From assembly GCA_022072445.1 (NCBI GenBank), contig JAJVHV010000012.1, forward strand, positions 16,897 through 80,896: 64,000 nucleotides of DNA, given 5' to 3'. The stretch comes from Phycisphaerae bacterium. GTDB taxonomy: Bacteria; Planctomycetota; Phycisphaerae; UBA1845; Fen-1342. Made by a program: the position numbers and the translations under genes. Shown one piece after another: positions 51,170 through 60,732 of the stretch. The notes below the pieces were generated by a model. That model was not told the origin of the DNA. It saw nothing but the letters and a program-made list of their open reading frames with translations, and searched no databases. The first letter of the stretch is position 1. Every line of letters begins with the position of its first letter.

Positions 51170-54100
51170 ATGCCCGTCCGCTTCGTGCTGGGTCGCGCCG
51201 GAACCGGAAAGACGCACGCCTGCCTTCAGGAAATCGCCCACGAGCTGGCGCGCCCCGGCGACGAGCGCCTGATCCTGCTCGTGCCCGAGCAGGCCGGCTT
51301 GCAGATGGAACGCGCCCTGGCGGCGCGCACCGCCGCGGGCGGCTACTGGCGGGCCGAGGTGACCAGCTTCACGCGGCTGGCGCGGCGGCTGATCGGCGAA
51401 TGCGGCGCGGCCCCGCCGCTGACGCGGCCCGCGGCGCGGACGATGATCCTTCGGCGGATTGCCGGCCAGACCTCGGGCTGCCGCGAGGCGTTCGGCGTCG
51501 CGGCCGACATGCGCGGTTTCTATGCGCGGCTCGATCAGTTCATCGAGGAGGTTCTCAGCGAAGACGTTTCGCCGGCCGATCTCGCGGCCGCCGTCGAGCA
51601 GCTTCCCGCCGGTGCGACGCGTGAGAAGCTGGGCGTCGTGTCGCGGGTTTACGGCGCGTATCTCGACTCGGCCGGTGAGGAGCGGCTCGACGCGGCCCTG
51701 CATCTTTTGCTGCTCCGTCGCCGGCTCGCCGAGATTCCCTGGTTGAGGTCCGCGTCGATCTGGGTGGATGGTTTCGCCGGTTTCACCGGCCAGGAATTCG
51801 CCACGCTGACCGCACTGGCGCAGGCGGCGCGGCGGCTGACGGTGTCGCTGCTGGTCGACGCCGATCAGGCCGACTTGCACGCCACCGCCGTCGTCGCCGA
51901 TCCGCTGCGGCTGTTTCACCGCACCGAGGCGACGTTTCAACGGTTGCACGCCGCGCTCCGCGACGCCGGCTTGGCGATCGAGATTCTGCGGCTGCCGTGC
52001 CGGCCGAACCCGCGTTTCGTCGCCAGTCCGAGCCTCGCGGCGCTGGAGGCGCGCCTCGCGGGCGCGCCGCCATCCGACCCCCCGCCGCCGCGCGGCGCGC
52101 TCCGCGTGCTGGCGTGCAGCGACCACCGCGACGAGCTGCGCCGCGCGGCGCGCTGGATTCGTCGCAGCATCGTCGAATCACGCGGCGCGCTGCGCTTCGC
52201 AGACTTCGCGCTGGTGGCCCGCTCGGTCGAGCCGTTCGCCGCGCTGGCCGCGGCGGTGCTGGAGGAGTTCGACATCCCGTATTTCATCGACGTGCGCCGG
52301 CCGCTCCGGTCGCACGCCCTGGCCCGCTGCCTGCTCGCGCTGCTGGAGGCCGCCCGCGACGAACTGCCTCCCGGCGCGATGATGCGCCTGCTGCGCACCG
52401 GGCTGCTGCCGCTCAGCCGTCATCAGGCCGAATGGCTTGAGTCGATCGTAGCCCAGCAGTCGCTACGCGGCCGGCGCGACTGGGGCGCGACGCACTGGCG
52501 CCCGTTCCGCCCCGACTGGTTCGAGCCGCCCGACCCGACGGACGAACCACACGCCGCGGCGACGCCCGCCGCACCACGCCCGACCGATCTGGCTCGGATG
52601 CATATCGCGGAATCGGTCGGCAAGCTGTGCGACCTGGCGCAGCGGACCGATCGGCCGACCGGCGAGCAGTGGGCCCGCGAGCTGGCGGCGGCGCTGCGCG
52701 CGCTGGAAATTGACCGACGCACGCAGTCCTGGATCGACGAGGCCGCCGCCGAACGCCGCTGGGAGGAGGCCGAGTGGCATCGGCTGGCCTGGGAGACGCT
52801 GTGTGACGTGCTGGACGACGTCGGCACGATCTTTGCTCACACCCCGCTCGCGATCGACGAGCTCTACGACATCGTCGCCACGGCCCTGGAAGACTCGACC
52901 CTGGGCCTGGCTCCGCCCACGCTCGATCAGGTGCTGGTCGGAGGAATCGAGCGCAGCCGTCACCCCGACATCCGCCACGTGTGGCTCTTTGCCTTCAACG
53001 ACGGCATCTTTCCGGCGACACCGGCCGACGACGCCGTCTTCAGCGAGTCGGAGCGCCGCGCGCTGCTCCGCGCCGGTCTGCCGGCGCTGCGCTCGCGCCG
53101 CGATGACATTCACAGCGAGCGGTTGCTGGCGTACGTCGCGGCGACGCGCGCCTCGCAGAGCCTGACGATATCGTTCGCGCGCTGCGACGCGGAAGGCGCC
53201 GCACTCGCGCCGTCTTCGCTGCTCGCCTGGTTGGCGCCGCAAGCACCCGAACAATCGGGTGGGGCCGACAACCTGCCTGCCATCGGGTACCCCAACGGCG
53301 CGCCGTCCGGCGCCGCTGCCCGCCAAGCCGATTGGGACGACGAACTTCCCGTCACGGTGCCCGATGCGATCCGCATGTCGTTCGACTCCCGCGGCGGGCC
53401 GGCGGCAACGCGCCATGCGGAGCTGGTCCAAACGCTGGGCAGGCCCGCCGACTCGCCGCTGGCTGATCTGGTCGCGCGCCTGACTCGGGGCGCCGGTTAC
53501 ACCAATCTGCCTGTGACACGGCCGCTCGTGGCCACGGAGCCGGGCGGACCGGTCTGGAGCGGCAGCGTCTCCCAGCTTGAGACACATGTGAGCTGCCCGT
53601 TCAAGCACCTCGCCGAGTTCCGGCTGCGGCTCGACACGCGCCGCGGTCCTCGGCCCATAGCCTGGGACCTCGGGTCGGCGGCGCATCGCGCCCTGGCCGA
53701 GGTCTTCAGCGCCGCCATTGCCCGCCCGGACGGGGCACGCGACTGCCCCGAGGAGGCGTGGTGCGTTTACCTTGAACGCGCACTCGAAAAGCTCGCCGCC
53801 GCCGCCCCGGACGCCGCGCGCCGGCCGGACCTGCGCTTCATGCTCGACCACCTGGGAAAGTTCCTGCGCGAAGTCGTGCGCGTCCATGCCGAGCGGCTGC
53901 GGCGAGGGGCGCTGCGGCCCTGGCTGGTGGAAGTCCCGTTCGGCGGTGGCGTCGCGGGGGAGCAAACGTGGATCGAACTGCCGCTCGCGTCGGGCGCCAC
54001 GGCGCGCATCGAGGGCAAGATCGATCGCGTCGATCGCGTCGATTCCGACGGCGTCACGCATCTTCTGATCTACGACTACAAAACCTCGGCCGATCTGCCG

Positions 54101-54658
54101 CCAAAGCACTGCCTGGTTGGCCCGTGGCTTCAGCTCGGCGCCTACCTGATGGCACTCGACGCGTGGGGCGCGGGTCGCTGGCGCGTCGCGGGGGGCCTGA
54201 TCGCACCGCTGCGGCCCGGCGCCGACCAGTTGAAGACCGACGACACGCTCGCGCGGCCCGAAATCGAGCAGTTGATGTTCATGTACCAGCCGCGTGGGAT
54301 GTTCGCCCGAGCGCTGGCCGAAGCGCTCGACAGCGGGCTGGGCGTGCAGCGCTCGCCGGTCGCGATGATGAGGCGGAAGAAATCGGGAGAGTTGATTGCC
54401 AAGTCGGATGCCCGCCGGGCCGAGGATATCGCGGGCATCGTCGAGGCGGCCCGCGCCACGTTCAGTGAGACGCTTGACGAGCTCTGTGAAGGAGGTGTCG
54501 CCCCCGCGCCGCTGCTGCATCAGCGTCGCCTTACGTGCCGCGTGTGCGAATTTCAGGCCGTGTGCCGCTTCGACCGCGCTTACAACCGGCCGCGCGACTC
54601 AAGAGTCGCGTTGCCGCGACTGGATGCGGCCCGTGACGTGCCAGAGGACGATTCATGA
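51170..54658 (+). CDS. addB: Helicase-nuclease subunit AddB
   Basis: AddB is the recombination and DNA-end-processing partner of AddA. The 1162-aa protein has an N-terminal P-loop (FVLGRAGTGKTHACLQ) and the inactivated-helicase layout of AddB. Its C-terminal PD-(D/E)XK nuclease includes IEGKIDRVDR (about 947) and LIYDYKTSA (about 967). The Fe-S cluster cysteines are visible: one in HVSCPFKHLAEF (about 808) and three in LTCRVCEFQAVCRFD (about 1122-1131). The final TGA overlaps the ATG of addA (ATGA). A ribosome-binding site (GGGAG) lies 11 bases before the ATG. Confidence 0.93.
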   Translation: MPVRFVLGRAGTGKTHACLQEIAHELARPGDERLILLVPEQAGLQMERALAARTAAGGYWRAEVTSFTRLARRLIGECGAAPPLTRPAARTMILRRIAGQTSGCREAFGVAADMRGFYARLDQFIEEVLSEDVSPADLAAAVEQLPAGATREKLGVVSRVYGAYLDSAGEERLDAALHLLLLRRRLAEIPWLRSASIWVDGFAGFTGQEFATLTALAQAARRLTVSLLVDADQADLHATAVVADPLRLFHRTEATFQRLHAALRDAGLAIEILRLPCRPNPRFVASPSLAALEARLAGAPPSDPPPPRGALRVLACSDHRDELRRAARWIRRSIVESRGALRFADFALVARSVEPFAALAAAVLEEFDIPYFIDVRRPLRSHALARCLLALLEAARDELPPGAMMRLLRTGLLPLSRHQAEWLESIVAQQSLRGRRDWGATHWRPFRPDWFEPPDPTDEPHAAATPAAPRPTDLARMHIAESVGKLCDLAQRTDRPTGEQWARELAAALRALEIDRRTQSWIDEAAAERRWEEAEWHRLAWETLCDVLDDVGTIFAHTPLAIDELYDIVATALEDSTLGLAPPTLDQVLVGGIERSRHPDIRHVWLFAFNDGIFPATPADDAVFSESERRALLRAGLPALRSRRDDIHSERLLAYVAATRASQSLTISFARCDAEGAALAPSSLLAWLAPQAPEQSGGADNLPAIGYPNGAPSGAAARQADWDDELPVTVPDAIRMSFDSRGGPAATRHAELVQTLGRPADSPLADLVARLTRGAGYTNLPVTRPLVATEPGGPVWSGSVSQLETHVSCPFKHLAEFRLRLDTRRGPRPIAWDLGSAAHRALAEVFSAAIARPDGARDCPEEAWCVYLERALEKLAAAAPDAARRPDLRFMLDHLGKFLREVVRVHAERLRRGALRPWLVEVPFGGGVAGEQTWIELPLASGATARIEGKIDRVDRVDSDGVTHLLIYDYKTSADLPPKHCLVGPWLQLGAYLMALDAWGAGRWRVAGGLIAPLRPGADQLKTDDTLARPEIEQLMFMYQPRGMFARALAEALDSGLGVQRSPVAMMRRKKSGELIAKSDARRAEDIAGIVEAARATFSETLDELCEGGVAPAPLLHQRRLTCRVCEFQAVCRFDRAYNRPRDSRVALPRLDAARDVPEDDS

Positions 54659-57600
54659 TCCTCACGCCCTCGCAACGCTGTGCCGTCGAGCATCGTGCCG
54701 AATCGCTGCTCGTCAGTGCTTCGGCCGGCTCGGGCAAGACCGAGGTCATGGCGCAGCGCTGCTTATGGCTCATCACGCAGGCCGCGCCCGCCTGCGACAT
54801 CGATCGGCTCCTGGTCGTCACCTTCACCCGCGCCGCCGCGGCCGAGCTCCGCGCTCGCATCGCCCGGCGGCTGCATGGGCTGGCGGCGGACACTTCCGCG
54901 GGCGCGGCGCGCGACCGGCTCCGCCGCCAGGCGGTGCTGGTCGATGTGGCCGACATCTGCACGTTCGACAGTTGGTGCGGACGGTTGGTGCGCGAGCATT
55001 TCGCCGCGGCCGGCGTCGACCCGGCCTTTCGCACCTTGTCGCCCGAGGAGGCGGCGCTTCTGCGGCACCAGACGCTCGACGCGCTGCTGGACGGAATCTA
55101 CCGCGGCAGCGAGACAGCGTCCGAGAACGCATTGAACCTGCTGGCCCGCAACGCGCACACCGGAGATGCGTTCCTGCGGCAGTGGATTCAATCCATCGAC
55201 GCCTGGCTGGACCGCGTCATCGAACCAGAAGTCTGGATCGCCGCCGCGCTGCGCACGCATGAAGCTCCAGCCGACGAGCGCCGCCGCGGCGCACAGCACA
55301 CGCTCTCCGCGGCCCTCGTCCGTGAACTCGCCTTTCAGTCCGGACAGCTTGCCGCACTCCCTGCCACCCAGATGCGCGCTAACCCGTACGTGCAGACGTA
55401 CGCACGCCAGATCGAAGACTGGCGGAAGGCGCTGGACGACGGCGGTGAAGACGTGATGTCGATCGTGAAGCGGTTCAACGCGTGTGAATTCGCGCCGCGC
55501 GGCGAGCTCAAACGCGCCTCGCCGCTGACCGTCGAAATTCACGACACGTGGTTTGTCAGACGGCTGCAGCGCGCCTGGGACGCCGAGCAGGTCGCCGAGA
55601 TCGTGCAGGATGCTCCCGATTCCTCGGCCCTGGCCTCGACCGCGCTGCGCCTGACCGTCCGGTATCGCGAGCTCCTGACGCAGCGCAAACGGCAGCGCGG
55701 CGCGCTGGAGTTTGCGGACGTTGCCCGCCGAGCGCTCGCTGTGCTATCGGACGAATCGCCGGGCGGCGTCGCCAGCCGGCTGCGCGACCGATACGAACAC
55801 GTCCTGGTCGACGAGTATCAGGACGTAAGCCCGCTCCAGACCGCGCTGCTGGCGCGCGTCGCACGCACCGGCCACGCCGCCAATCGCTTTCTCGTCGGCG
55901 ACGTCAAGCAATCGATCTATGCGTTTCGCTCGGCCGAGCCGCGGTTGTTTCTGGAAGCGCAGGCCGCGCTGCGCGCCGGCGGCGAGCGCGGAACCGTCCT
56001 GACGCTGGCCGATAACTTCCGCAGCCACCCGCGACTGCTGGAAACGCTCAACACGTTATTCGGACGGCTCTTTTCAGAGGCGTTTGGCGGCAGCGCGTTC
56101 GCGGACGGGGAGTTGCTGGTTGCGCGGCGGACCGAGGTCCCCAATCCGTCGCTCGACGACTCCCCGCGCGTCGATGTGCACATCATCGACGAATCGCAAC
56201 CGAATTCGCGCGAGGAGGAAGAGGACGATGAGAGCGACGATCTGACGGAGCGGATCGATCGCGAGGCGGCGCTGGCGGCGGAGATGATTATCGGCTTGCG
56301 GAGCGAGGGGGTGCGCGTGCCGCGGCGTGCCGGCGACGGCGTGACTCTGGAGCCGGTGCGATTTTCGGACGTGGTGATCCTGCTGCGCGCCGCGCACGTC
56401 AACGCGGCGCGGATCGCCGCGGTGTTGCGCGACGCCGGCATCCCATGCCTGACTGCGGGGCGCGAGTCGCTGCTGCGGTCGGTCGAAGTGCAGGATGTGC
56501 GCGCGGTGCTGGCGTTGCTGGCGAGCCGCCGGCAGGACGTGCCGATGGCCGCGTATCTGCGCGGGCCGTTTGTCGGATTATCGGCGCAGGAGCTGCTGGA
56601 TATTCGGACCGCGCAGCCGCGCGGAGGATTCGCCGAAGCTGCGGAGCATTATGCGACCGAGGGGAGCGACGCGGCTCTGCGGGCGCGGGTGCAGGCGGGG
56701 ATGAGCTGGCTGGACGAGCTGTCGCGTGAAGCGCGCCTGCACGAGCTGCCGACGATTCTGCGGCGCATCATTCACAGCAGTGGTTATGAGCTGTTCGCGC
56801 GCGGGCAGCGTGGCGGGCGGCACCGCGCCGAACTGCTGGCGGCGCTGGAGCGCTATGCCGGGCAGTTTGCGAGGACCGGACTTTCGGGCGTGCACGAATT
56901 CGTCGAGTTCCTGGACGACATTGCGCAGCGTGATCTGGATCTGGAGGCGGCGGTCGCGGCCGGCGAGGACGCCGTGCGCATCATGACCATTCATGCCGCC
57001 AAAGGGCTCGAGTTTCCGTTCGTATTTCTGCTGAATGCCGGCGCGGAGTTCAACAACCGAAGGTGCTCGCAGGCGATCCAGTGCGACGAAGCGGGGCTGG
57101 GGCTGCGATTTCTGGACTATCCGCAACGACGTACGCTGACGACACCGGAACACCCGGTGATTGGGCAGCGCGGCGTGCAGCGCGAGCGCGAGGAGGAGTT
57201 GCGGCTGCTGTACGTCGCCGCGACGCGCGCCCGCGAAAAACTGACGATTATCGGACACGGTAGTGGCGAAGGGGCGGAGGGCATTCGGGCGCGGGCGGCG
57301 TGCTTCGGCGATCGGCCGCCGCTGGCGACGCTGCTCGGAGCGAAAAGTCACCTGGAGTGGGTGCAGTGGGCGGTAGCGTGCGGTGGCTGCGACCGCGCGG
57401 CGCCGCCGCTGGTCACCGTCACGACGCACGCGGCCGGGGCGATTGGCGGGCCGGACCGGTCCGCCGCACCGGAGCCTCCGCCGGCGATGACTCCGGACGA
57501 CGCGGCGTGGGTGGCGCGCGCGGAGGCGCTGGTGCGTGCCGGCGTGCGGCGTGCGGCGTCGGACTTGCCGGCTGCGCTTTCGGTCAGTGCGCTGAAACAG

Positions 57601-58281
57601 TCGGCCGAGGCGTTGCACGACGAAGGACGTCGAGTCTACGGACACGCGATTTCGCTGCGGCGGAGCCGGTTCGACGAGCGGGCGCCGGCGTCGAGCCCGA
57701 CGGCGGCTGGCATTGCGGTTCACCGCTTCCTCCAGTTCGCCGATCTGGCCGAGCTGGACACGGTCGGCCGCGTCGCCGCGCAGGTTGCCGAACTGGTTGC
57801 GGCGCGCCGCCTGACCCTGGAGGAGGCGGCGTTGATCGAGCCTGATCCGATCGTGTGGTTCGCGTGTACGCCGCTGGGGCGGCGGGTCGCGGCGCAGAGC
57901 GGGACGGCGCGGCGGGAACTGGCGTTTGTATATCTGCTGCCTGGCGCGGCCGAGGCGGAGCGTGTCATGGCGCGTGGCGTGATCGACTGCCTGTTCGAGG
58001 ACGAGCACGGGTTGTGCATCGTCGATTACAAAACGGACCGCTTGAAGAGTGAGGAGGAGCTGAGCGCGCGCGTCGCGGTCTACCGCACGCAGGTGGAGCT
58101 CTACGCGCGTGCCGTGGCGGCAGTTTCGGGCAAGCCGGTTGGCAGCGCGTCGCTGGTCTTCTTCGGCCCGCGGCGCGTCGTCGAGGTGAGCCTCGCGGAT
58201 GAGATGGGCGCTGCGTGGGCCACGCCGCTGCTGACGGCGACAACACACGTGCCGGCTCTGGAGCGCGTGCGGATTGTCTAG
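54655..58281 (+). CDS. addA: Helicase-nuclease subunit AddA
   Basis: This 1208-aa UvrD-like (SF1A) 3'-5' helicase has all motors: ASAGSGKTEV (I), FTRAAAAELRARI (Ia), VDEYQDVSPLQ (II, about 385), GDVKQSIYAFRSAEPRLF (III, about 415), LADNFRSHP (IV), MTIHAAKGLEFPFVFLL (V, about 779) and LRLLYVAATRAREKL (VI). A C-terminal nuclease follows, with VIDCLFEDEHGLCIVDYKTD (about 1107-1124). With AddB it degrades broken DNA ends for RecA loading. The start overlaps the addB stop by 4 bases. Confidence 0.95.
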   Translation: MILTPSQRCAVEHRAESLLVSASAGSGKTEVMAQRCLWLITQAAPACDIDRLLVVTFTRAAAAELRARIARRLHGLAADTSAGAARDRLRRQAVLVDVADICTFDSWCGRLVREHFAAAGVDPAFRTLSPEEAALLRHQTLDALLDGIYRGSETASENALNLLARNAHTGDAFLRQWIQSIDAWLDRVIEPEVWIAAALRTHEAPADERRRGAQHTLSAALVRELAFQSGQLAALPATQMRANPYVQTYARQIEDWRKALDDGGEDVMSIVKRFNACEFAPRGELKRASPLTVEIHDTWFVRRLQRAWDAEQVAEIVQDAPDSSALASTALRLTVRYRELLTQRKRQRGALEFADVARRALAVLSDESPGGVASRLRDRYEHVLVDEYQDVSPLQTALLARVARTGHAANRFLVGDVKQSIYAFRSAEPRLFLEAQAALRAGGERGTVLTLADNFRSHPRLLETLNTLFGRLFSEAFGGSAFADGELLVARRTEVPNPSLDDSPRVDVHIIDESQPNSREEEEDDESDDLTERIDREAALAAEMIIGLRSEGVRVPRRAGDGVTLEPVRFSDVVILLRAAHVNAARIAAVLRDAGIPCLTAGRESLLRSVEVQDVRAVLALLASRRQDVPMAAYLRGPFVGLSAQELLDIRTAQPRGGFAEAAEHYATEGSDAALRARVQAGMSWLDELSREARLHELPTILRRIIHSSGYELFARGQRGGRHRAELLAALERYAGQFARTGLSGVHEFVEFLDDIAQRDLDLEAAVAAGEDAVRIMTIHAAKGLEFPFVFLLNAGAEFNNRRCSQAIQCDEAGLGLRFLDYPQRRTLTTPEHPVIGQRGVQREREEELRLLYVAATRAREKLTIIGHGSGEGAEGIRARAACFGDRPPLATLLGAKSHLEWVQWAVACGGCDRAAPPLVTVTTHAAGAIGGPDRSAAPEPPPAMTPDDAAWVARAEALVRAGVRRAASDLPAALSVSALKQSAEALHDEGRRVYGHAISLRRSRFDERAPASSPTAAGIAVHRFLQFADLAELDTVGRVAAQVAELVAARRLTLEEAALIEPDPIVWFACTPLGRRVAAQSGTARRELAFVYLLPGAAEAERVMARGVIDCLFEDEHGLCIVDYKTDRLKSEEELSARVAVYRTQVELYARAVAAVSGKPVGSASLVFFGPRRVVEVSLADEMGAAWATPLLTATTHVPALERVRIV

Positions 58282-58431
58282 TGTAGTGCCTCAGAGCTGC
58301 CGTGCGGTATTCCGAAGGGGATGGCCTCCGGCCGGTCCGCATCGGCCTGCGGCCACTGCGGACGGCGATTCGCACCGGCCAGAGGCCGATGCTCCCCGAA
58401 TCGGGGACGCAATATCTCTGAGGCAGTACAC
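58281..58431. repeat. 151-bp long imperfect palindrome between addA and uvrD
   Basis: The ends are inverted repeats of 16 bases matching at 15 (GTGTAGTGCCTCAGAG at 58281-58296; CTCTGAGGCAGTACAC at 58416-58431). Inside, GGCCTCCGGCCGGT and ACCGGCCAGAGGCC pair again at 13 of 14. The whole element could fold into one long hairpin of about 70 bases per arm. It begins on the last base of the addA stop codon. Confidence 0.8.
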
Positions 58432-58458
58432 CAGGTGGACGCGGCCGGCGCGAGCCGG

Positions 58459-58464
58459 TATACC
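58459..58464 (+). promoter_or_regulatory. Weak -10-like element before uvrD
   Basis: TATACC is six bases before ATG 58471; it does not end in T, so it is a weaker leaderless candidate than the others. Confidence 0.3.
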
Positions 58465-58470
58465 GCCGGC

Positions 58471-60732
58471 ATGTCGGACTCGGGCGACGATTTTATTTTC
58501 GGCGATCTGAACGCGGCGCAGCGCGAGGCGGTGGCGCACCGTGACGGGCCGCTGCTGGTGTTGGCCGGTCCGGGCAGCGGGAAGACGCGCGTCATCACGC
58601 GGCGGGCGGCGAATCTGGTGCGGCAGGGAGTGCCGCCGTGGGCGATCCTGGCGATCACGTTCACGAACAAGGCCGCGGACGAGATGCGGCAGCGCATCTG
58701 GGGTCTGGGCGTGGAACGCGGGATGTCGATCCACACGTTTCACGCGCTGGGGGCGCGGCTGCTGCGGACGTATGGCGAGGTACTGGGGATCGATCCGGGA
58801 TTCTCGATCTACGACGAAGCGGACCAGACGGCGGTGATGCGGGAGGCAATGGAGCGCTGCGCGGTGGGCGAGGGGCTGGTGGACTGTGACGCGGCGCTCT
58901 CGTGGGTGAGCGACGCGAAGAACCTGCTGCTGTCGCCGGCGGAGGCGGCGCAGCGTGCCGAGCGGCACGATGGGCGAACGATGGCGCGGCTGTACGAGGC
59001 GTACGACGCGCTGCTGCGCGAGCGCGGGGCGGTGGATTTCGACGACCTGCTGCTGCACGTGGCGATGCTGCTGCGCGAACACGCGGACGTGGCGGAGCAG
59101 TTGAACGAGCGTTTCCAGTACATTCTGATCGACGAGTACCAGGACACGAACCACGCGCAATACATGATCGCGCACGGGTTGTCGCGCGTGCGGCGGAACA
59201 TCTGCGCGACCGGCGACCCGGATCAGAGCATCTACGCGTGGCGCGGCGCCGACCTCCGCAACATTCTTGAGTTCGAGCGCGACTTTCCCGATGCGGTGGT
59301 TGTACGCCTGGAGCAGAATTACCGCTCGACGGGGAACATCCTGCGGGCGGCGTCGAGCCTGATCGCGCACAACCGCTGGCGCAAGCCCAAGAGACTCTGG
59401 ACGGAGGCAGGCGACGGGCCGCCGGTGCACGTGCGCGGCTTCGAGACGGGCGAGGACGAGGCACGTTTCGTGGCGCTGGACATCCGGCGGGCGCACACGG
59501 CCGGGCGGCCGTTCAGCGACATGGCGGTGTGCTACCGGACGAACGCGCTGTCGCGGGCGCTGGAAGAGGCGTTTCGCCGGGAGGGCATCCGCTACCGCAT
59601 TGCGCGGGGCGTCGAATTCTACAACCGGCGGGAGGTGCGCGACGCGCTGGCGTATCTGCGCGTGCTGGTCAACCCGCTCGATCAGATCGCGCTGCTGCGG
59701 ATCATCAACACGCCGCCGCGCGGCATCGGCAAGACGACGGTCGAGCGGCTGGTGCATTTCGCGGAGCGCGAGGGGCTTCCGCTGCTGGAAGCGCTGCGGC
59801 GGTGCGAGTCGATCGAGTCGTTGCGGAGCGCGGTGCCGCGTGTGCGGGCTTTCGTGGGATTGCTGGAGGAACTGAAACTGTTCGCGCAGGGGACGGTCGC
59901 CAGCGCGCTGTCGTCGGTGCTGTCGCTGAGCGGTCTGGAGGCGGCGTTGCGTGAGGAAGCGGCGGCGACGCAGGCGGTCGAGGAGTCGCGGCTTTCCAAC
60001 GTGCAGGAGCTGGTGAGCGCCGCGGCGGCGTATGACCGCGAGGCGGAGGAGCCGAGCCTGGCGGACTTCCTGCGGCGGGTGGCGCTGACCAGCGACCAGG
60101 ACGCGGTGGACGCGTCGGCGGGGTGCGTGCTGCTGTTGACGCTGCACGCGGCCAAGGGGCTCGAGTTTCCGGTTGTTTACGTCATCGGCGTGGAGGACGG
60201 GCTTTTGCCGCATGAGCGGACGCGCTCGTATCCGGACGCGGTCGAGGAAGAGCGGCGGCTGCTGTTCGTCGGGATGACGCGCGCCCGGGAGCGGCTGACG
60301 CTGTCGCATGCGCTGATGCGAACGACGCGCGGCGTGCCGATGCCACGGCGGCCGAGCGAGTTCGTGCAGGAGCTGGGCGAGGAGGGTGTCGAACAAGAGC
60401 GCGCGGCGCCGCGCACGCCGCCGCGCGACGGCTGGCGTCGCGGCGCTGGCGACGACGACTACGACCAGCGGCCGGACGATGAAATCGGCGCGCGGCGGTT
60501 GCGGGACGGGCGGCGAACGTCGCGCGAAGCAGCGCTGCCGAGCGACGGGGTGGACGACGGGCCGTACGCGGACTGGACGGCGGGCACGGTCGTGGCGCAT
60601 TCGACGTACGGCGTGGGTGAGATCGTCTGGATCCGCCCGTCGTTTTCGCGGACGCGTGCCGGAGTGCGGTTTCCGTCGGTCGGTGAGAAGACACTGATAC
60701 TCGATATCGCGCCGATTCGGCGATTGGGATGA
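58471..60732 (+). CDS. pcrA: UvrD/PcrA-type DNA helicase
   Basis: This ATP-dependent 3'-5' helicase of nucleotide-excision and mismatch repair is 753 aa long. Motifs: LVLAGPGSGKTRVI (I, about 32-45), TFTNKAADEM (Ia), ILIDEYQDTNHAQY (II, about 221), TGDPDQSIYAWRGAD (III), LEQNYRST (IV), LTLHAAKGLEFPVVYVIG (V) and RRLLFVGMTRARERL (VI). The C-terminus has a Tudor-like extension (AGTVVAHSTYGVGEIVWIRP) seen in PcrA/UvrD. The start ATG 58471 is chosen by homology; 50 upstream in-frame codons lie in the palindrome region. Confidence 0.94.
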   Translation: MSDSGDDFIFGDLNAAQREAVAHRDGPLLVLAGPGSGKTRVITRRAANLVRQGVPPWAILAITFTNKAADEMRQRIWGLGVERGMSIHTFHALGARLLRTYGEVLGIDPGFSIYDEADQTAVMREAMERCAVGEGLVDCDAALSWVSDAKNLLLSPAEAAQRAERHDGRTMARLYEAYDALLRERGAVDFDDLLLHVAMLLREHADVAEQLNERFQYILIDEYQDTNHAQYMIAHGLSRVRRNICATGDPDQSIYAWRGADLRNILEFERDFPDAVVVRLEQNYRSTGNILRAASSLIAHNRWRKPKRLWTEAGDGPPVHVRGFETGEDEARFVALDIRRAHTAGRPFSDMAVCYRTNALSRALEEAFRREGIRYRIARGVEFYNRREVRDALAYLRVLVNPLDQIALLRIINTPPRGIGKTTVERLVHFAEREGLPLLEALRRCESIESLRSAVPRVRAFVGLLEELKLFAQGTVASALSSVLSLSGLEAALREEAAATQAVEESRLSNVQELVSAAAAYDREAEEPSLADFLRRVALTSDQDAVDASAGCVLLLTLHAAKGLEFPVVYVIGVEDGLLPHERTRSYPDAVEEERRLLFVGMTRARERLTLSHALMRTTRGVPMPRRPSEFVQELGEEGVEQERAAPRTPPRDGWRRGAGDDDYDQRPDDEIGARRLRDGRRTSREAALPSDGVDDGPYADWTAGTVVAHSTYGVGEIVWIRPSFSRTRAGVRFPSVGEKTLILDIAPIRRLG

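Follow-up and report, generated by a model that had tools for sequence, protein, structure and literature searches.

The model we propose for the 151-bp palindromic element lying between an addA-like and a uvrD/pcrA-like gene combines two kinds of repeat. Very probably, the element is the relic of a non-autonomous IS630/Tc1-type transposon (a MITE) whose IS630-type ends enclose a REP-like cargo, and which entered at the TA of a CTAG target, thereby rebuilding the stop codon of addA. An IS630-type MITE inserting at TA within CTAG is indicated by the ends shared among the copies, their CTA and TAG flanks, an IS630 gene with matching ends and the CTAGTG termini of related insertion sequences; the interior is regarded as cargo because its palindromes also occur on their own as a dispersed repeat. 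Judged by the tested features, the element is an IS630-type MITE, as are the RUP and Correia elements.

Structure of the element

The sequence-only reading of the window (the whole 64,000-nucleotide stretch of Phycisphaerae bacterium DNA analysed here) had described a 151-bp palindrome starting on the last base of the addA stop, with terminal and internal inverted pairs, and both its coordinates and its features hold (Table 1). The terminal arms match at 15 of 16 positions and the internal pair, 58323-58336 with 58374-58387, at 13 of 14, the latter as read from the sequence, the inverted-repeat search having returned a longer 29-nt arm at 79%. The predicted RNA fold of the element reaches -90.9 kcal/mol versus -63.1 +/- 4.3 for 200 shuffled sequences (z = -6.5), none of which folds as well. 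Within the 64-kb window, the terminal motif is found only at the two ends of the element, for 0.00 expected occurrences. The window copy carries small deletions relative to the four full copies found elsewhere, which measure 154-158 bp, and is flanked by TA on the left-hand side and by CA on the right-hand side.

Table 1. Features at the addA-uvrD junction (positions in the window)
Feature	Position	Strand	Basis
addA-like gene, UvrD helicase and PD-(D/E)XK nuclease; TAG stop shared with the element edge	54655..58281	+	Pfam
Left TA of the CTAG target, completed to the addA TAG stop by the first G of the element	58279..58280	+	sequence; target pattern of 36 copies
Whole element, IS630-type MITE with REP-like core, 151 bp	58281..58431	.	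copy comparison
Left terminal inverted repeat GTGTAGTGCCTCAGAG	58281..58296	+	
Third REP-like unit, 4-base deletion relative to other copies	58317..58338	+	copy alignment
Second REP-like palindrome, degenerate	58339..58360	+	alignment with other copies
Intact REP-like palindrome GGGGAGCATCGGCCTCTGGCCGGTG	58373..58397	-	listing of exact cores, G000:C20:75269-75293
Right terminal inverted repeat GTGTACTGCCTCAGAG	58416..58431	-	
CA, probably what remains of the right-hand TA of the duplication	58432..58433	+	inferred from other copies with TA there
uvrD/pcrA-like gene, likely start 58471	58471..60732	+	Pfam

Copies in the genome and its relatives

Its own genome contains 55 matches to the element. 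Besides the element itself, five of these are near full length at 88-91% identity (92-94% when gaps are ignored), and the remaining ones are truncated or restricted to the core; the four full copies are 97-99% identical among themselves. In total, 22 distinct related elements were tabulated in this genome, three of which are without set ends and several of which have one set end only. The copies share the 16-bp ends GTGTA(C/G)TGCCTCAGAA, preceded mostly by CTA and followed mostly by TAG. A search with the terminal repeat in this genome and its relatives yielded further elements of 116-214 bp with the same ends and other interiors, and some part of the element was matched in 9 of 41 genomes, its own included, mostly by the core alone.

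The palindrome is thus short, multi-copy and bounded by terminal inverted repeats, and its size leads us to judge it non-coding: it is a MITE and not an RNA confined to one locus. The proposal of a MITE, already made from the sequence alone, is borne out by these multiple copies (22 related ones in the genome, where a single one would have spoken against it), by their common terminal repeats, by TA flanking both ends in a CTAG context and by the IS630 gene with matching ends.

Two arrangements were observed in passing. At about 1394-1412 of locus L023, a MITE copy adjoins the apparent terminus of a second element of this kind, which is what reuse of rebuilt CTAG edges as targets would produce. 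At G000:C4:237979-238343 and G000:C31:9752-10176, regular repeats lie about 116 and 200 bp apart, with chance-level matches of the end pattern.

A CTAG target with duplication of TA

The target was reconstructed for 36 paired copies, 15 from this genome and 21 from relatives (four whose flank on one side fell short of 300 bases were kept). It reads CTAG in 27 of the 36; at non-genic TA sites the share is 5.8% (P = 2e-26), with a background taken from this genome alone for both CTAG and TA, sampled over 464 kb (the window plus L236-L255). TA is present on both sides in 20 of the 36 copies, on at least one side in 33 and on neither in 3, counts to be read in the light of a search pattern that included the TA, mismatches allowed, and left out the outer C and G. 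Duplication of TA on insertion, the mark of an IS630-type MITE, is therefore seen here. As for known systems, the excerpts of PMC2170065 used here report that ISY100 duplicates TA on insertion, and the title of a 1991 IS630 paper in its reference list announces a preference for TA in CTAG; our element resembles ISY100 in the former respect and IS630 in the latter, but both of these are complete and encode their transposase.

The same flanks could be read otherwise, the CTA and TAG edges being part of the element itself, that is, of a 19-bp repeat starting with CTAG, so that the element would bring its own stop and slightly alter the ends of genes. Most edges are indeed CTAG, also in IS630 relatives from many phyla. 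We consider this reading improbable: the flanks vary like those of a target, ATA, GTA or TTA standing beside some copies instead of CTA, and the published CTAG preference of IS630 and TA duplication of ISY100, as given in those excerpts of PMC2170065, run against it, as does the case of an acyl-CoA dehydrogenase gene whose Pfam domain stops only two residues short of the rebuilt stop. An empty orthologous addA-uvrD site was sought in the relatives and not found, uvrD not lying beside addA there.

Coincidence with stop codons

At addA, the stop consists of TA plus the first base of the element. An element with G as its first base and C as its last leaves, once inserted into CTAG, CTA before that G and TAG after that C, so that a TAG stop at the target is rebuilt. 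Automatic classification placed 16 of the 36 paired copies exactly on the TAG stop of a gene, and 17 when addA is counted; the two figures arise because gene calls on the joined flanks gave an antisense open reading frame at addA, while calls on the whole window, together with Pfam, support addA itself. All calls were made by a simple codon-usage script trained on this genome and applied to the relatives too. In the own genome, 9 of 22 copies end on the TAG of a called gene (eight flagged automatically, the ninth, L020, read from coordinates) and none of the 22 lies inside a called gene; among the 36 paired copies, five were classed inside a gene, addA being one of them. Pfam domains were found in seven of ten stop-associated genes scanned.

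This share of stops exceeds the 12.5% seen at non-genic TA sites (P = 2e-6). Against non-genic CTAG sites, 34% of which are stops, P is only 0.12 (0.01-0.03 against all CTAG sites), and for that reason no preference for stops beyond that for CTAG is claimed. CTAG itself is scarce, with 94 sites in the 464 kb versus 1411 predicted from base composition (about 15-fold rarer); 22 of them fall at called stops, 42 are intergenic and 30 are inside called genes. CTAG targeting, the scarcity of CTAG in genes and the loss of damaging insertions suffice to explain the coincidence. A bolder picture, to which we give a small but real chance, would have a near-purged CTAG channel IS630 elements and their MITEs to TAG stops, where they would serve as mobile 3'-end modules adding a REP-like hairpin to transcripts without damage to the gene; every insertion would leave two CTAG sites where there had been one, the elements would thereby create new targets as they spread, and CTAG avoidance by the host and the spread of the elements would shape each other.

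IS630 ends and a candidate parent transposase

By profile search, the genome holds a single gene with Pfam DDE_3, the IS630 catalytic domain. Its frame of 370 aa is intact, with helix-turn-helix and DDE_3 domains, and is bounded by the inverted ends CTAGTGTAGTGTCTCACGA and CTAGTGTAATGTCTCATCA, which differ from those of the MITE at 2 to 4 of 19 positions; the three closest relatives of the transposase are Planctomycetota records. Among 80 related IS630 loci taken, 70 had enough flank to be scored: CTAGTG stands at both ends in 51 and at one end in 16, versus 0 and 2, respectively, for the reversed motif used as a control. At 22 of 30 positions, the consensus of 34 MITE ends is the same as that of 33 IS ends. 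Since the outer part had served to find the IS ends, only the inner 14 positions are independent, and 9 of these 14 agree (binomial P about 0.002).

The ends of the MITE therefore match those of an IS630-family element, though they are identical to those of no insertion sequence found: none with identical ends turned up in 27 genomes of the family, and of 29 loci scanned for ends, one (L202, in genome G016) is bounded on both sides by ends of the type found with the IS630 transposase of L087. The true driver may have been lost or may be unsampled.

Other end types starting with CTAGTG, CTAGTGCTCCGTCA, CTAGTGTAGCTAGTCAG and CTAGTGCTCTGTCAC, were noticed at L042, L043, L050, L197, L189 and L196, some enclosing the same REP-like core and some located at IS630 genes. 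Miniatures of this kind seem to exist for several IS630 lineages.

An independent REP-like core

The core palindrome has the form GGGGAGCATCGGC(C/G)TC(C/T)(G/C)GCCGGTG, with two units head to head in the shorter types of element and about three in that of the window. It is not bound to the IS630-type ends: 19 of the 40 exact core copies in this genome lie outside the tabulated elements, many in tandem arrays, and G015, from a related genus, has 187 exact copies for only 5 matches of the terminal repeat (at most 2 mismatches). In the wider class, the core is present in 3 of 101 genomes sampled. Among 56 distinct copies, the pair closing the loop is G-C in 29, C-G in 26 and A-T in one; this suggests, but does not prove, a selected hairpin, since the search pattern fixed the neighbouring bases and the copies are related to one another. 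Conversely, L074 (1501-1624) and L046 (2771-2886) have the same IS630-type ends around a different palindromic core, of GGGTGGGGCGGGC type, so that ends and cores act as interchangeable modules.

The core palindromes are a separate REP-like dispersed family enclosed by IS630-type ends. The features of a REP, namely a tagged palindrome, high copy number and inverted pairs, are found in the core only, with GGAG as the tag and not GTAG. The earlier suggestion of a REP-like pair (BIME) thus stands for the interior, and fails for the element as a whole, which has IS630-type ends.

Could the whole be a REPIN or BIME mobilised by a RAYT (Y1) transposase, for which the outer repeats would be incidental? 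The GGAG-headed inverted palindromes, which also occur in tandem and dispersed without the outer repeats, and the presence of Y1_Tnp genes in this genome would fit. But the outer repeats bound copies with two different core types, a REP unit is without TA duplication, and no core copies accompany the strong Y1_Tnp genes here or in the relatives, which makes this origin very improbable. Among the 39 Y1_Tnp loci scanned (the best matches), the palindrome was not found flanking a RAYT gene; exact-type cores occur near Y1_Tnp only at L097, where the Y1_Tnp match is weak and has no matching open reading frame. A RAYT-driven unit was rejected, as no cognate RAYT was found among these loci.

Tandem arrays of the palindrome, mostly with a 42-bp spacing, were observed at L097 (798-1370, on G000:C27), which has 14 units, and at G000:C8:140034-140526.

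Origin of the composite and comparison with known elements

The origin we infer for this IS630-ended MITE involves transposition in trans, capture of the core and no needed role at the locus. An IS630 transposase would act in trans by recognising the GTGTA(C/G)TGCCTCAGAA ends, between which a REP-like core would have been captured, and would insert the element at the TA of CTAG with duplication of TA. With G at one end and C at the other, the element would restore CTAG at both its edges; where the TAG of the target is the stop of a gene, as at addA, this stop would be rebuilt in place and the gene would not be truncated. The hairpin added to the addA-uvrD transcript would be a by-product.

RUP of Streptococcus pneumoniae, the MITE of IS630-Spn1, is described in the consulted excerpts of PMC2229807 and PMC3049150 as an element of about 107 bp with IS630-like ends, a TA target, no coding capacity and a mostly intergenic location. 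Our element is likewise short, IS630-ended, TA-targeted and without coding capacity, and its copies too are mostly intergenic; it differs from RUP in sequence and in its location at CTAG, often on stop codons, and those excerpts present RUP as AT-rich and mention no REP-like core. Like the Correia/NEMIS elements of Neisseria, it is an IS630-related MITE forming a long hairpin beside genes, but ends and host are different, and the accounts of Correia/NEMIS consulted in part describe no enclosed independent REP-like family. The inner palindromes have the form of the RAYT-associated GTAG REPs and REPINs, and share their inverted doublets and clusters as outlined in the parts of PMC3733652 consulted, where the GTAG REP ends are also said often to supply a TAG stop to flanking open reading frames; they differ from these in the GGAG tag, in having no cognate RAYT found and in lying between IS630-type ends. 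No description of a composite of IS630 ends and REP core was found in the titles and abstract starts of the open-licence PMC papers retrieved.

IS630-type MITEs are well known; here, though, the ends surround a REP-like family that is also dispersed independently, which brings together two kinds of bacterial repeat that are mostly discussed separately, and such a composite may show how cores pass between mobile ends. The coincidence of CTAG with stops provides a simple and testable reason for elements gathering at gene ends without harm to the gene.

The addA-uvrD locus

The sequence-only reading had also considered a structured RNA or terminator separating the two helicase genes, and this finds no support. 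The very stable predicted fold and the position between co-oriented genes would agree with a conserved RNA of regulatory function, an attenuator or a terminator at this junction; against such a role are the many copies at unrelated genes, the lack of an Rfam family and of a terminator-like site in the element, and an adjacency of addA and uvrD that is not conserved, and we hold it to be very improbable. The element has no Rfam match (one chance-level match falls outside it) and contains no intrinsic terminator in the sense of a G+C-rich stem followed by a T run. In the 23 other genomes of the family with an addA match, uvrD was not seen beside addA within 1.5 kb downstream (less at some loci). 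A single-locus RNA was rejected on the missing Rfam family and the many copies, and an intrinsic terminator because the only predicted site, 58472-58489, is downstream of the element.

Once the element and one TA are subtracted, the addA stop and the uvrD ATG are 36 bases apart, and so the element probably entered an operon, where it is most likely a tolerated relic. Upstream of its likely start, uvrD stays in open frame through part of the element, as far back as an ATG at 58321 that a small deletion in the window copy created; an extended UvrD starting there could exist but seems unlikely. An addB-like frame, addA and uvrD follow one another in a row over 51170-60732 of the window.
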